In this document: piece after piece, positions 21,066-33,665 of the stretch
How positions within the stretch are numbered: position 1 is the stretch's first letter
How the letters are laid out: the number at the start of each line of letters is the position of its first letter
Virus record (IMG/VR): IMGVR_UViG_3300046005_000999
Location: 1 to 37,845 of that record
Strand: one strand, 5' to 3'
DNA from: a virus
Length of the DNA: 37,845 nt
Made by a program: the position numbers and the translations under genes
The notes under the pieces: generated by a model
The model's input: the letters and a program-made list of their open reading frames with translations, nothing else
Databases searched by the model: none
What the model was told of the DNA's origin: nothing

Positions 21066-21214
21066 TTGCCTATTTGTTTTCTAATAACCTCGTCTTTCTC
21101 TTGAGGAGTTTTAACTTCTATTTCTTGCCCGTCTTTAGTAATCACAACACTAACTTTTTTAATATTAGGTGAGATATAAACCCCACCTCCCCTATCTTTA
21201 TTAGCTTCTGTCAT
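21062..21214 (-). CDS. Small basic/acidic protein, 50 residues
   Basis: The frame begins at ATG 21214, directly at the predicted transcription start, and ends in an ATGA overlap with the dehydratase. It is charged, with a Gly-rich N-terminal segment (RGGGVYISP) and a beta-hairpin-like VVITKDGQEIEVKT. No family was recognised. Its position as the leader gene of the sugar operon, with no untranslated leader, suggests it may set translation of the operon, but a protein function is equally possible. Confidence 0.65.
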   Translation of the reverse strand: MTEANKDRGGGVYISPNIKKVSVVITKDGQEIEVKTPQEKDEVIRKQIGK

Positions 21215-21220
21215 AAACGA

Positions 21221-21249
21221 ATTATAACAAAAAAACCACACTCGGTCAA
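21221..21249 (-). promoter_or_regulatory. Promoter of the glycan cassette
   Basis: TTGACC (21244-21249), 17 bases, TATAAT (21221-21226) on the minus strand. TG precedes the -10 by one base. Six bases separate the -10 from ATG 21214, so the first transcribed base is the A of ATG. The -35 lies within the terminator stem of the capsid gene. Confidence 0.85.
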
Positions 21250-21263
21250 TAGACCAAATGTGG
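21229..21263 (-). terminator. Intrinsic terminator of the capsid gene
   Basis: On the minus strand CCACA pairs with TGTGG and, further in, GGTC pairs with GACC around a four-base loop, followed by seven T. It lies 25 bases after the capsid stop codon and shares bases with the cassette promoter. Confidence 0.82.
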
Positions 21264-21287
21264 ATTTCTTGTTTACAACTTCTGATA

Positions 21288-22187
21288 TTACTCAGTTGTC
21301 ATAAATCTAATTCCTGCTGCGTCTTTATTCTCTACAACACCGTAAAGTATATCTGCTGTTGTCAAAGTTGAAAGATACTGTGGAACGTAGTTTGACTGTA
21401 TTCTAACTCCACCTGCACCTACCATACCACCCTTTGATGAAACTCCTAGAGGAGCAGTTGCAAAGTGAATAGCATCTGCGTGTGCAATAGCGTTGTTTCT
21501 ACCAGTTGTAGAAGAAACGTATGTGATGTTGTTTGAAGTGTAAACTGGTCTGCCATAAAGCTTACCAATCATTCCTTTGTTTACAGGTGATGCTGATGCA
21601 TCGTTTTGTACAAGAGTGAACTTGTCCAATCCCATAAGTTGATTCCAAGCAACTGCTTCATTGAAGAAGAATGCTACTCCGTCTAAATCAACATTTCCTG
21701 CTGCCAAAAGTCCGAGACCCTTTCTAATATCTGAATCTACAACAGTTGTAGTTGAAGCACCAACTGATTGTGAGAAACTTGCAAACAATGTTGCGATAGC
21801 AACTTCCAAAACCTTAGCAATAGAATAACCTGCATTCTTTGCGTATGTATTCTGGATGTAATAGCTCTGTTTGAATTGAGCTGCTTCTTTATCCTCAATG
21901 TTGAAGGAAACTTCATACCACTGGTCAACAGTCAAAGTAATCTTTGTTTCTGTTGGTGAGCTTAGAGTAACGGCTGCACCGTTAGACTTTGCTGTCGCTG
22001 TCATCTCAGTAATATTTGGTGTGTAAAGTGCTGAACCCCCTCCTCTTAATTCTGAACTTCTGTCTGTGAAGAAATTAGCCATAACCAACTTTGATTTATA
22101 AAAGTCGTTTATTCTATCTCCCCATAGTTTTGGTACTAATTCAGCAACGTCTGCTGCTGTAAAAGTATCTGATGGAAAACTTGTCAT
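21288..22187 (-). CDS. Major capsid protein
   Basis: The 299-residue product follows the scaffold gene and precedes an intrinsic terminator. N-terminal FTAADVAELVPKLW and ELRGGGSALYTPNITE, then a long spine-like helix region and a beta-rich C-terminal part with RPVYTSNNI and DAIHFATAPL, are the usual pattern of HK97-fold coats of small podo- and siphoviruses. The length fits a coat without a large N-terminal delta domain, consistent with a separate scaffold. It has no Shine-Dalgarno site and no clear own promoter in the 77-base leader. Assignment rests on gene order and pattern. Confidence 0.83.
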   Translation of the reverse strand: MTSFPSDTFTAADVAELVPKLWGDRINDFYKSKLVMANFFTDRSSELRGGGSALYTPNITEMTATAKSNGAAVTLSSPTETKITLTVDQWYEVSFNIEDKEAAQFKQSYYIQNTYAKNAGYSIAKVLEVAIATLFASFSQSVGASTTTVVDSDIRKGLGLLAAGNVDLDGVAFFFNEAVAWNQLMGLDKFTLVQNDASASPVNKGMIGKLYGRPVYTSNNITYVSSTTGRNNAIAHADAIHFATAPLGVSSKGGMVGAGGVRIQSNYVPQYLSTLTTADILYGVVENKDAAGIRFMTTE

Positions 22188-26930: not shown

Positions 26931-27771
26931 AATTTGGTTTGTTTTTATTAACTTTTCCCGACTCTTGCTTATAAAATGCTATTAACTTCCCTAAATCTCT
27001 TTTTAATTCCGTTGGCTTTGTTGGTTTTGGTGCGTATGGTTGCCCTATAATGTTTGGTAGGTGTTCAATGGTTGATTTTAGTTTATCATAAGTCAGTTGT
27101 TTTGCTAGGTCATCTATTGCCTTGCGTTCCGTCTTGTTTTTAAAGAAGTCTTTATACATTGGGTTCACTTCTTTGAATAGTTCAATAAGTTCATTGATTT
27201 GATTGCTCTGCAAAAATTCTTTTTTGCTAGTATCTCTTATTATGTTATTTATGTTATTGTATGTGTCCGTTTGTTGTCCGTTTGTTGTCCGTTTGTTGTC
27301 CAACTTCTGATAGGTTTTCCATTTAAGTATTGTTATTACACGATTTTTTGTTGTTTTCTGTTGTCCGATTTGGCGTGTTTTTTCAAAATATGACAAGATT
27401 CTCTCTATTGTGGTTTCTGATATACCAGTATTGTGGCTTAAAACCTTACGACCAGTTAAAATCTGTCCCGCGTCTAGAATTTTGTCTTCACCATTAAATA
27501 TAAATCTATACCCGTCTTTGTGGTTTGCCATTAGCAAAAGGTGCAACCACAAACTCACATACTCTGGTTTACAGGCTATTGGGTTATCTAGTAATTTTCT
27601 ATGCACACTTACCCAACCATTTTGGTTCTTCATCTCGTTTGATTCTACGCAAAAGTCCGCTGACGACTGAGAAGGTGAACCAACACCCTCGCCACTATTA
27701 CTAGTAGCGAAATCATCAACGGACTGCTGCGAATTATCACTATTAAATTGTTTTGGTTTATTCTCTCCCAT
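26920..27771 (-). CDS. DnaD-like winged-helix replication protein
   Basis: The region after residue 47 has the phage replication N-terminal domain: WVSVHRKLLDNPI, EYVSLWLHLLLMANHKDG, FIFNGEDKILDAGQILTGRKVLS, then the winged-helix TGISETTIERILSYFEK and VITILKWKTYQ. A C-terminal DnaD-like helical part follows (about residues 200-260). It would recruit the host helicase to a phage origin. The first 46 residues are Ser/Asn/Gln-rich and disordered. ATG 27771 is only two bases behind the -10, so a later start (Met47, 27633) should be considered. It opens the minus-strand structural block, unusual for a replication gene. Confidence 0.75.
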   Translation of the reverse strand: MGENKPKQFNSDNSQQSVDDFATSNSGEGVGSPSQSSADFCVESNEMKNQNGWVSVHRKLLDNPIACKPEYVSLWLHLLLMANHKDGYRFIFNGEDKILDAGQILTGRKVLSHNTGISETTIERILSYFEKTRQIGQQKTTKNRVITILKWKTYQKLDNKRTTNGQQTDTYNNINNIIRDTSKKEFLQSNQINELIELFKEVNPMYKDFFKNKTERKAIDDLAKQLTYDKLKSTIEHLPNIIGQPYAPKPTKPTELKRDLGKLIAFYKQESGKVNKNKPNYVL

Positions 27772-27773
27772 AT

Positions 27774-27802
27774 ATTATAACATATATTCGGTTAAAATGC
27801 AA
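27774..27802 (-). promoter_or_regulatory. Promoter upstream of the replication protein
   Basis: TTGCAT (27797-27802), 17 bases, TATAAT (27774-27779) on the minus strand, TG before the -10. The predicted start lies inside the first codons of the 27771 frame, which conflicts with that ATG being used from this promoter. Confidence 0.7.
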
Positions 27803-28070: not shown

Positions 28071-28079
28071 TTTTTTAAT

Positions 28080-28107
28080 TTGCAAACATATATATTAGTA
28101 ATATAAT
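28080..28107 (+). promoter_or_regulatory. Early plus-strand promoter
   Basis: TTGCAA (28080-28085), 16 bases, TATAAT (28102-28107). Transcription would begin about four bases before ATG 28118, giving a very short leader. Confidence 0.72.
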
Positions 28108-31174: not shown

Positions 31175-31561
31175 ATGGCAAAATTTAAAATAGGAGATAA
31201 AGTAAAAGATATAGAAACAGGTAGAATTGGTATCGTAGATGAAATTGGGGATTTATATACAACAATAACATCAAGTGATGGTAAATATATATATAACCAT
31301 AATCGTATTTGTCTTGAAGACGGTTGGCAACAGGGAGATGTGTTGGTAAACAAAGATGATGAACAGAGGATGATATTAGGAATCTGTGGGGAAGTTTATT
31401 TTACAACCTGTCCTGATTCAGAACTCGCTAGTGATGGTATTTGGACAAAAAAGGAACTAATTAAAGAAGGATACAAACCCCTCTCCGAAACCCCAGTCCT
31501 AGAAGTCACCTTAGAACAAGTCGCAGAGAAGTTTGGAGTTGATAAGATTAAAATAAAATGA
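31175..31561 (+). CDS. Hypothetical protein with KOW/SH3-like N-terminus, 128 residues
   Basis: The N-terminal KFKIGDKVKDIETGRIGIVDEIGDLYTTI resembles a small beta-barrel of the SH3/KOW type, and ICLEDGWQQGDVLVN repeats the style. The C-terminal part has a Pro-rich run and a short helix (VTLEQVAEKFGVDKIK). Function is unknown; RNA or protein binding would suit the fold. The gene starts eight bases after the previous stop and is followed by an ATGA overlap. Confidence 0.6.
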   Translation: MAKFKIGDKVKDIETGRIGIVDEIGDLYTTITSSDGKYIYNHNRICLEDGWQQGDVLVNKDDEQRMILGICGEVYFTTCPDSELASDGIWTKKELIKEGYKPLSETPVLEVTLEQVAEKFGVDKIKIK

Positions 31562-31743
31562 AACCATCAAAAAAGACACAAAAAACAATTGATGTTGTCA
31601 ATTCAATCTTAAAAGCAATAGAAAAAGAGGGGTTCGTTTATAACCTAAATGGTTTGAATTTTTATTACAAAGGTAAGACTTTCTTCATCCACCAAGTTAA
31701 ATGTGGATGCAAAGAATGCAAACGACCTAGCAAGGATAAATAA
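31558..31743 (+). CDS. Hypothetical basic protein, 61 residues
   Basis: Basic helix at the N-terminus (MKPSKKTQKTIDVVNSILKAIEKEG), then a beta-hairpin-like YNLNGLNFYYKGKTFFIHQVK, and a C-terminal CGCKEC cluster that could hold a metal. No family was recognised. It is coupled upstream (ATGA) and ends one base before the next start. Confidence 0.6.
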   Translation: MKPSKKTQKTIDVVNSILKAIEKEGFVYNLNGLNFYYKGKTFFIHQVKCGCKECKRPSKDK

Positions 31744-31744
31744 G

Positions 31745-31981
31745 ATGAAAATCAATATAAGTAAAATAGGTGAACCATATAGTAAGACAATAGAAGTAAG
31801 TATGTCAAACCATAAAGACAAGGAGAACAATATCTATTATGGAGTAGAGTATGAAGGAAGGATTATTGAGTTGGTTATAACAAAAGAAGAATTAAACGAG
31901 ATTTTAGTAGAAGAAGCATTTGAAGAAGTAACAGGTAAAAAAGAATGGTCAGAGTTATTAGATAAATTAACAATAAAATGA
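31745..31981 (+). CDS. Hypothetical protein, 78 residues
   Basis: ATG 31745 is chosen over the longer open frame from 31703, which would overlap the previous gene by 41 bases. The N-terminal half is beta-rich, the C-terminal half acidic helix (TKEELNEILVEEAFEEVTGKK). There is no motif. Its stop overlaps the next start as ATGA. Confidence 0.6.
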   Translation: MKINISKIGEPYSKTIEVSMSNHKDKENNIYYGVEYEGRIIELVITKEELNEILVEEAFEEVTGKKEWSELLDKLTIK

Positions 31982-32145
31982 AAACAATAAAAGTAATGGG
32001 TATTATAGGAATAGTATTAGCTTCAATAACGACACTCGTTTTGTTTGGGGGAGGTGATGAGATGGCAATAGGACTTTGGGCTTTAGCATCATTAGCATTT
32101 CTTATGGCACAGTCAATCGTAGCAGTAGTAAAGATTAAGGAATAG
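31978..32145 (+). CDS. Small two-helix membrane protein, 55 residues
   Basis: Two hydrophobic segments (VMGIIGIVLASITTLVLF and MAIGLWALASLAFLMAQSIV) flank a Gly-rich turn. It is translationally coupled to the gene before and is the last gene upstream of the structured RNA. It might be a holin-like or envelope protein; without a partner gene this is a guess. Confidence 0.65.
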   Translation: MKTIKVMGIIGIVLASITTLVLFGGGDEMAIGLWALASLAFLMAQSIVAVVKIKE

Positions 32146-32474
32146 TTCTTTAACAGCTCGGCAATAGATGTGGTGGTATGGGGCAACTAGTGTGGAATAC
32201 ATAGCTGAAGTGAGACCCTTCTAAAGTTAGCCCGAACGTGCCACCAGACCTGTTGCTGAGTATTACATCGAGTGTAACGAGATAATAGTAGGTGAATCGG
32301 TGGGGGAAGCACACGAAGTTGCTTAGAGTTGGGGAACGCCACGCAAGGGAAACAGCTCGGATAGAATCGTTCAAATGTTCTATCGTGATGGTATACCACG
32401 ATGTATACTCGTTCCGCTCTCCCCACGAGTTCGTCTACACATCGGAGTTCAATCCAACCTCGCAAGGTTAAATA
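32146..32474 (+). ncRNA. Candidate structured RNA, class unknown
   Basis: No coding frame fits this 330-base stretch. By hand count GC is 145 of 300 (48%) in 32161-32460, against roughly 30% in adjacent genes. It has many exact stems: 32171-32176 with 32241-32246; 32181-32188 with 32225-32233; 32207-32210 with 32218-32221; 32263-32267 with 32273-32277; 32307-32311 with 32320-32324; 32360-32366 with 32378-32384 (7 bp); 32391-32396 with 32403-32408; 32407-32412 with 32425-32430; and 32456-32460 with 32465-32469. A 10-base direct repeat, AACAGCTCGG, lies at 32152 and 32351. Nothing resembles tRNA, tmRNA, RNase P or group I core motifs. It lies on the early transcript and ends seven bases before the next gene. 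Confidence 0.6.
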
Positions 32475-32476
32475 AA

Positions 32477-32695
32477 ATGGCACATACAACAACAAACAAC
32501 ACAATGGTCAGGGTTATAGAAACACAAGCTGTGGATTATGAAAAACACTCTTGGTTAATTTTTGAGTGGAATGTAAAAGTAAATACGACCAAACTAAGAA
32601 ACGACATTTTTATAGTAACCAATGACGAATTTGATAGTGTCTTTATAAATAATGTAGAGTATGAACCTCGCAAGGTTGAGAAGAAGAAAATATGA
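32477..32695 (+). CDS. Hypothetical protein, 72 residues
   Basis: ATG 32477 follows the RNA element and an AACCT-CGCA-AGGTT hairpin by seven bases. The longer in-frame extension from 32375 runs through the structured region and is rejected. The product is beta-rich (MVRVIETQAVDYEKHSWLIFEWNVKV). The same 14-base hairpin sequence occurs inside this gene at 32664-32677. Its stop overlaps the next start. Confidence 0.6.
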   Translation: MAHTTTNNTMVRVIETQAVDYEKHSWLIFEWNVKVNTTKLRNDIFIVTNDEFDSVFINNVEYEPRKVEKKKI

Positions 32696-32871
32696 AAGAG
32701 AAAAAGCATTATCCAATAAAAAATAGTCTAGGCGGGGAATCTTGTTGGAAATGTCTTAATTGGTCGAGTGTGGTGGGCGGATTAAGATTTTATAAGTGCC
32801 TAGCCACCAAAAAAGAAATCAAAGAAAATAGGTTTTTATTAGAAACCAAGTTAATTGAGAAGAAGAAATGA
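32692..32871 (+). CDS. Small Cys-motif protein, 59 residues
   Basis: The product contains CWKCLNW and a later Cys (YKCLA), a probable metal site, plus a Lys-rich C-terminal helix. The start overlaps the previous stop (ATGA), and its own stop overlaps the next start. No family was recognised. Confidence 0.6.
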   Translation: MKEKKHYPIKNSLGGESCWKCLNWSSVVGGLRFYKCLATKKEIKENRFLLETKLIEKKK

Positions 32872-33011
32872 AAAATAAACAATATTCGCTGTTAGAAAAA
32901 GTATTAGTTATAATCTTTGTCCCCCTTCTTGTATTTTATTGGGTAGGAACTCTGTGTTGGTTTATACAAGGGATTTGTAATAATTTTTGGAGAGAAGTAA
33001 ATAAAAACTAA
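32868..33011 (+). CDS. Small membrane protein, 47 residues
   Basis: A short polar N-terminus is followed by a single strong hydrophobic helix (VLVIIFVPLLVFYWVG, then TLCWFI) and a basic end. Coupled by ATGA to the Cys-motif protein. It is probably in the host inner membrane; function unknown. Confidence 0.6.
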   Translation: MKNKQYSLLEKVLVIIFVPLLVFYWVGTLCWFIQGICNNFWREVNKN

Positions 33012-33632: not shown

Positions 33633-33665
33633 AAAACACCCGCCGAGAAGGGTGTTTTGTTTTAT
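33633..33665. terminator. Bidirectional intrinsic terminator
   Basis: A nine-base-pair stem (AAAACACCC with GGGTGTTTT, eight-base loop) with T-rich DNA after it on plus and A-rich DNA before it, so it works for both convergent blocks. Confidence 0.88.

Follow-up and report, generated by a model that had tools for sequence, protein, structure and literature searches.

A strongly folded orphan element between two genes of an early phage operon

A non-coding gap in a compact operon

Why does a phage whose early genes are packed closely together leave 331 nt free between two of them? We addressed this question in the IMG/VR contig IMGVR_UViG_3300046005_000999, the entire length of which (37,845 nt, hereafter the window) was analyzed. 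The genes for terminase, major capsid protein, ERF recombinase, a DnaD-like protein, and DNA methyltransferase identify the contig as that of a phage. The gap is located among small early genes that all run rightward (28.1-33.6 kb), between a promoter-like site at one end (28079-28107) and a bidirectional terminator at the other (33633-33658). On the + strand, the gap (32146-32476) extends exactly from the stop codon of one ORF to the start codon of the next. The upstream ORF (31978-32145), whose stop codon occupies 32143-32145, encodes a hydrophobic product of 55 aa that matches no family; the downstream ORF (32477-32695), which begins with the ATG at 32477, encodes 72 aa, and neither a family nor a relative was found for it. 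The gene finder accepted the downstream ORF with a score of 9.8. Because the neighboring genes mostly abut or overlap, an intercistronic region of this length is unusual. With a GC content of 47%, it is also the most GC-rich 331-base segment of the 37.8-kb contig, and the hand count given in the initial annotation (145 of the 300 bases in 32161-32460) proved to be exact.

We examined the coding potential of the gap with a codon score trained on the long ORFs of the same phage. A missed protein-coding region on either strand could reside in one of two open frames, one of 95 codons on the - strand and one that would extend the 72-aa ORF in frame by 34 codons. However, all candidate frames gave negative codon scores of -0.20 to -0.28, while those of most neighboring genes were about 0.04 to 0.27. 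Phage-like codon usage was absent from every frame of the gap on both strands, and its chance ORFs matched no Pfam or PHROGs family. Taken together with the + strand fold described below, these results make a missed coding region highly improbable. The gap is non-coding, as the initial annotation had stated in finding no fitting reading frame.

In the region 32010-32630, no promoter-like or terminator-like site was recognizable on the + strand. An intrinsic terminator, a GC-rich stem followed by a U run, was absent from the gap, and the nearest one downstream is that at 33633-33658. We infer that the gap is transcribed together with the operon. In the whole contig, an extended -10 motif, TGNTATAAT, was found at 13 sites against 2.85 expected; many of these sites are no more than about 20 bases from a start codon, which points to transcripts that are leaderless or have a very short leader. 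The Shine-Dalgarno signal is weak across the phage genes. This weak signal and the TGNTATAAT motif would fit a sigma-70 host other than Bacteroidota. The nearest terminase matches among cultured phages were those of Flavobacterium phages (45%), and the only terminase relative in the genome collection (59%) was found in a metagenome bin, G038. Since the sampled members of the class of this bin have genomes of about 0.5-1.2 Mb, a host belonging to Patescibacteria is suggested.

Folding of the gap

The + strand of the whole gap folded with a predicted free energy of -111.7 kcal/mol (z -3.9), which none of 500 dinucleotide shuffles equaled, while the - strand gave a weaker fold (z -1.7, 19/500 shuffles). 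Because about 15 other 331-nt segments of the contig, several of them inside genes, reached a similar z, the value for the whole gap is not exceptional by itself. A 108-nt segment at 32155-32262 (+ strand), which we designated domain 1, has a stability far beyond that expected by chance. Its minimum free energy is -49.0 kcal/mol, and its z is -5.6 on the + strand (0/200 shuffles) versus -2.6 on the - strand. To allow for the picking of the best stretch, we compared the minimum over 108-nt segments with the same minimum in shuffles of the gap, and none of 300 whole-gap shuffles reached the stability of domain 1. It is the second most stable 108-nt stretch of the 37.8 kb. The predicted structure is a forked hairpin composed of a 12-bp helix, a 3x3 internal loop, a 10-bp helix, a GGGC/GCCC pairing with a 3-nt GAA bulge, a 4-bp helix, and two short hairpins. 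The nested domain that the initial annotation placed at 32171-32246 was thus a real signal, although its extent is wider. The strand asymmetry of folding argues for selection on the + strand RNA.

The only more stable 108-nt stretch lies at 27637-27744 on the - strand (-50.3 kcal/mol; z -5.8 for 27611-27760). It is part of a forked structure (27611-27767, - strand) whose outer helix has 15 bp and which is located at the beginning of the DnaD-like ORF, in its first ~45 codons. Since a -10 box at 27774-27782 is too near the listed ATG (27771) and the DnaD homology begins only at residue ~51, this region is probably an untranslated structured leader with the true start near 27633. A class shared by the gap and this leader fold was rejected, as they have no sequence similarity. 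In three relatives (L003, gene from about 8279; L007, about 7789; L051, about 5515), a T-rich run with hairpins or pseudoknot-like pairings on its 5' side stands just ahead of the DnaD-like start codon, an arrangement that might constitute an attenuator-type leader. Another very stable segment of the window, 21141-21290 (- strand, z -7.6), has the appearance of a terminator with the next promoter and gene start immediately after it.

Folding was less distinctive in the remainder of the gap. A small hairpin, TTACATCGAGTGTAA (32263-32277, + strand), has a z of -3.2 but only -1.6 kcal/mol. Domain 2 (32286-32440, + strand) is predicted to consist of an arm of 10 bp plus 7 bp whose tip is branched and poorly defined, and the 3' arm (32288-32437) folds no better than chance (z -1.55, equaled by 12 of 200 shuffles). 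Two near-isoenergetic folds were obtained for domain 2, one of which pairs 32333-32338 with 32410-32415; forced alternatives gave -111.2 and -110.8 kcal/mol versus -111.7, giving the tip at least two folds in a range of 1 kcal/mol. The two hairpins sharing two bases that had been proposed as mutually exclusive are located in this poorly defined 3' half and carry little weight. The abundance of stems turned out to be ordinary, with 15 stems of at least eight pairs (G-U allowed) compared with 12.0 +/- 3.7 in shuffles. The exact 10-base direct repeat AACAGCTCGG does exist on the + strand (32152-32161 and 32351-32360), but 38 of 1000 shuffles held a 10-mer repeat or longer, and it likewise carries little weight. 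Of the proposal of a noncoding RNA or long cis-regulator, what stands is a non-coding, + strand region in the operon with one very stable domain; an ornate 330-nt RNA is not supported, because significant folding is limited to about 108 nt.

Near the downstream start codon, a 5-bp hairpin, AACCTCGCAAGGTT (32456-32469, + strand, -3.3 kcal/mol), lies just 5' of the ATG at 32477 and competes with a possible closing helix of the gap, in which TTTAAC (32149-32154) would pair with GTTAAA (32467-32472). A translational cis-regulator of the 72-aa ORF could be built from these two elements, the exchange between closing helix and hairpin hiding or freeing the AAGG located 9 nt upstream of the ATG. The position of the closing helix, whose 3' strand ends 4 nt before the ATG, and the recurrence of the same 14-base hairpin before the next gene would suit such a switch. 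On the other hand, the pair probability of the closing helix is only 0.67, the hairpin is weak, the phage genes show little Shine-Dalgarno signal, and more than 200 nt separate the start codon from the strongly folded domain 1, and we consider this regulation unlikely. The second copy of AACCTCGCAAGGTT is exact (32664-32677) and a third is degenerate (31724-31737); a repeat of at least 14 bases was present in 11 of 500 shuffles of 31501-33000. This 14-base element (AACCTCGCAAGGTT twice and GACCTAGCAAGGAT once, at 31724, 32456, and 32664) precedes three gene starts of the early operon. In the ORF 31703-31981, the listed GTG start is probably wrong, and an ATG at 31745 comes after the repeated start-site element.

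Relatives of the gap

We searched the whole 37.8-kb contig with the covariance models of Rfam 15, including those of GOLLD, ROOL, OLE, group I and II introns, RNase P, tmRNA, 6S RNA, and riboswitches, and obtained no match at the gathering score, in agreement with the initial annotation, which had recognized no known core. At a relaxed E-value, only two chance matches appeared, SBWMV2_UPD-PKk (16.6 bits, gathering 35) and SNORD45 (15.1 bits, gathering 42). ARAGORN detected no tRNA or tmRNA gene on the contig. A BLASTN search with the gap down to an E-value of 10 gave no meaningful match in either the 50,697 phage records or the 72,556 plasmid records.

IMG/VR was queried with the ERF protein, the terminase, the 128-aa and 72-aa neighbors, and four DNA words of 15-19 bases. 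Among the loci retrieved, 80 with the terminase and 80 with ERF, the early genes adjoining the gap were absent from all except one contig, IMGVR_UViG_3300044991_000847. This sole other copy is 99.99% identical over 12.7 kb, and its gap is identical. Two covariance models were also used, R1 for domain 1 and R2 for domain 2. Among the relatives, they matched only the source contig and this second contig; R2 gave nothing in 384 genomes of the class of G038, and R1 gave nothing in 380 genomes of its phylum, although both are weak single-sequence models that may have missed distant relatives. The DNA-word matches, which were filtered by nhmmer, BLAST, and the two covariance models, were judged to be due to chance, the better ones (L282, L257, L181, L184, L186, L195) lying inside protein genes. 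Two matches in genomes of the G038 phylum also lie inside genes, and two collinear matches in a relative, G031, were dropped because the stronger one sits within its terminase gene. Structured gaps of the relatives were also examined, and those of L158 resemble tRNA genes. These searches recovered no diverged homologue of the gap, which is a strongly folded orphan element outside GOLLD, ROOL, and every other Rfam family tested.

The GC content, unlike that of the neighbors, and the absence of the gap and its flanking genes from every relative beyond the near-identical contig could also indicate that a GC-rich insertion of foreign origin has left a remnant here, or that the gap is a DNA element; in either case the RNA fold would have no function. 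However, the gap has no terminal repeats longer than 6 bases and no sequence match was found in the phage and plasmid searches, while the strand asymmetry described above points to selection on the RNA. We therefore regard such an origin as quite improbable.

Possible roles in the early transcript

Since neither a promoter nor a terminator is recognizable in the gap itself, the simplest reading is that it acts in cis as part of the early mRNA. We tentatively favor a cis-acting intercistronic structure concerned with RNase III cutting or mRNA stability, while holding this to be far from assured. The gap would be an untranslated spacer of the polycistronic early mRNA, with domain 1 as its working part, a long forked RNA hairpin that presumably forms in the cell. 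Domain 1 may act in cis as an RNase III type cutting site of the early transcript; alternatively, it may be a barrier, shielding the upstream and downstream halves of the mRNA or keeping them apart. RNase III sites generally look like two stacked helices of about 10 bp or more, split by an internal loop. The predicted 12-bp and 10-bp stacked helices with the 3x3 loop between them, in a same-strand polycistron, appear compatible with an RNase III substrate, a structural feature that is necessary but not sufficient. Against this reading, the searches yielded no homologue, 331 nt are not needed for a simple cutting site, and the GC-rich 3' half is left unaccounted for.

The cost of 331 nt of non-coding DNA in a compact operon, together with the highest GC content of the contig and the stability of domain 1, would be more readily understood if a discrete non-coding RNA were released from the early transcript and acted in trans, with host machinery or a defense system as possible targets. 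Nevertheless, the gap has neither a promoter nor a terminator of its own and belongs to no Rfam family, its 3' half folds no better than chance, and complementarity to phage targets did not exceed chance (13 nt, while shuffles reached 13-14 nt). Such an RNA is conceivable, but we think it rather unlikely. The more specific proposal of a new class of trans-acting early phage RNA of a small-genome, possibly Patescibacteria, host with domain 1 as the functional core is decidedly doubtful.

If domain 1 is functional, it offers a starting point for work on how phages of uncultured bacteria exert control at the RNA level, a little-known area. As a single orphan with a strong fold and no homologue, the gap element is a candidate rather than a discovery, and its 108-nt core provides a definite query sequence for new data.

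Among known systems, GOLLD and ROOL are likewise structured non-coding RNAs of phages, the structure of the gap being a predicted one. One ROOL example has 659 nt, GOLLD often exceeds 800 nt, and these RNAs are often found near tRNA islands (PMC12286853). The gap, by contrast, is 331 nt long, folds significantly in a single 108-nt domain, is part of a contig in which no tRNA gene was detected, and has no Rfam match, and we rejected its membership of these groups, which are characterized by more than 600 nt, an elaborate multi-domain fold, and frequent proximity to tRNA genes. Riboswitch-like or autoregulatory mRNA leaders share with the gap a structured RNA before a start codon, whereas in the gap more than 200 nt lie between the strong fold and the start codon, and no family was matched. 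RNase III cuts transcripts of T7, T3, and lambda, and the leftover hairpins can stabilize the products (PMC5371410). The gap differs from these hairpins in its larger size, its GC-rich 3' half, and the lack of sequence kinship, but it resembles the RNase III hairpins of T7/T3 early and lambda transcripts in being placed between cistrons or in the leader of an early phage polycistron and in its predicted long irregular hairpin.
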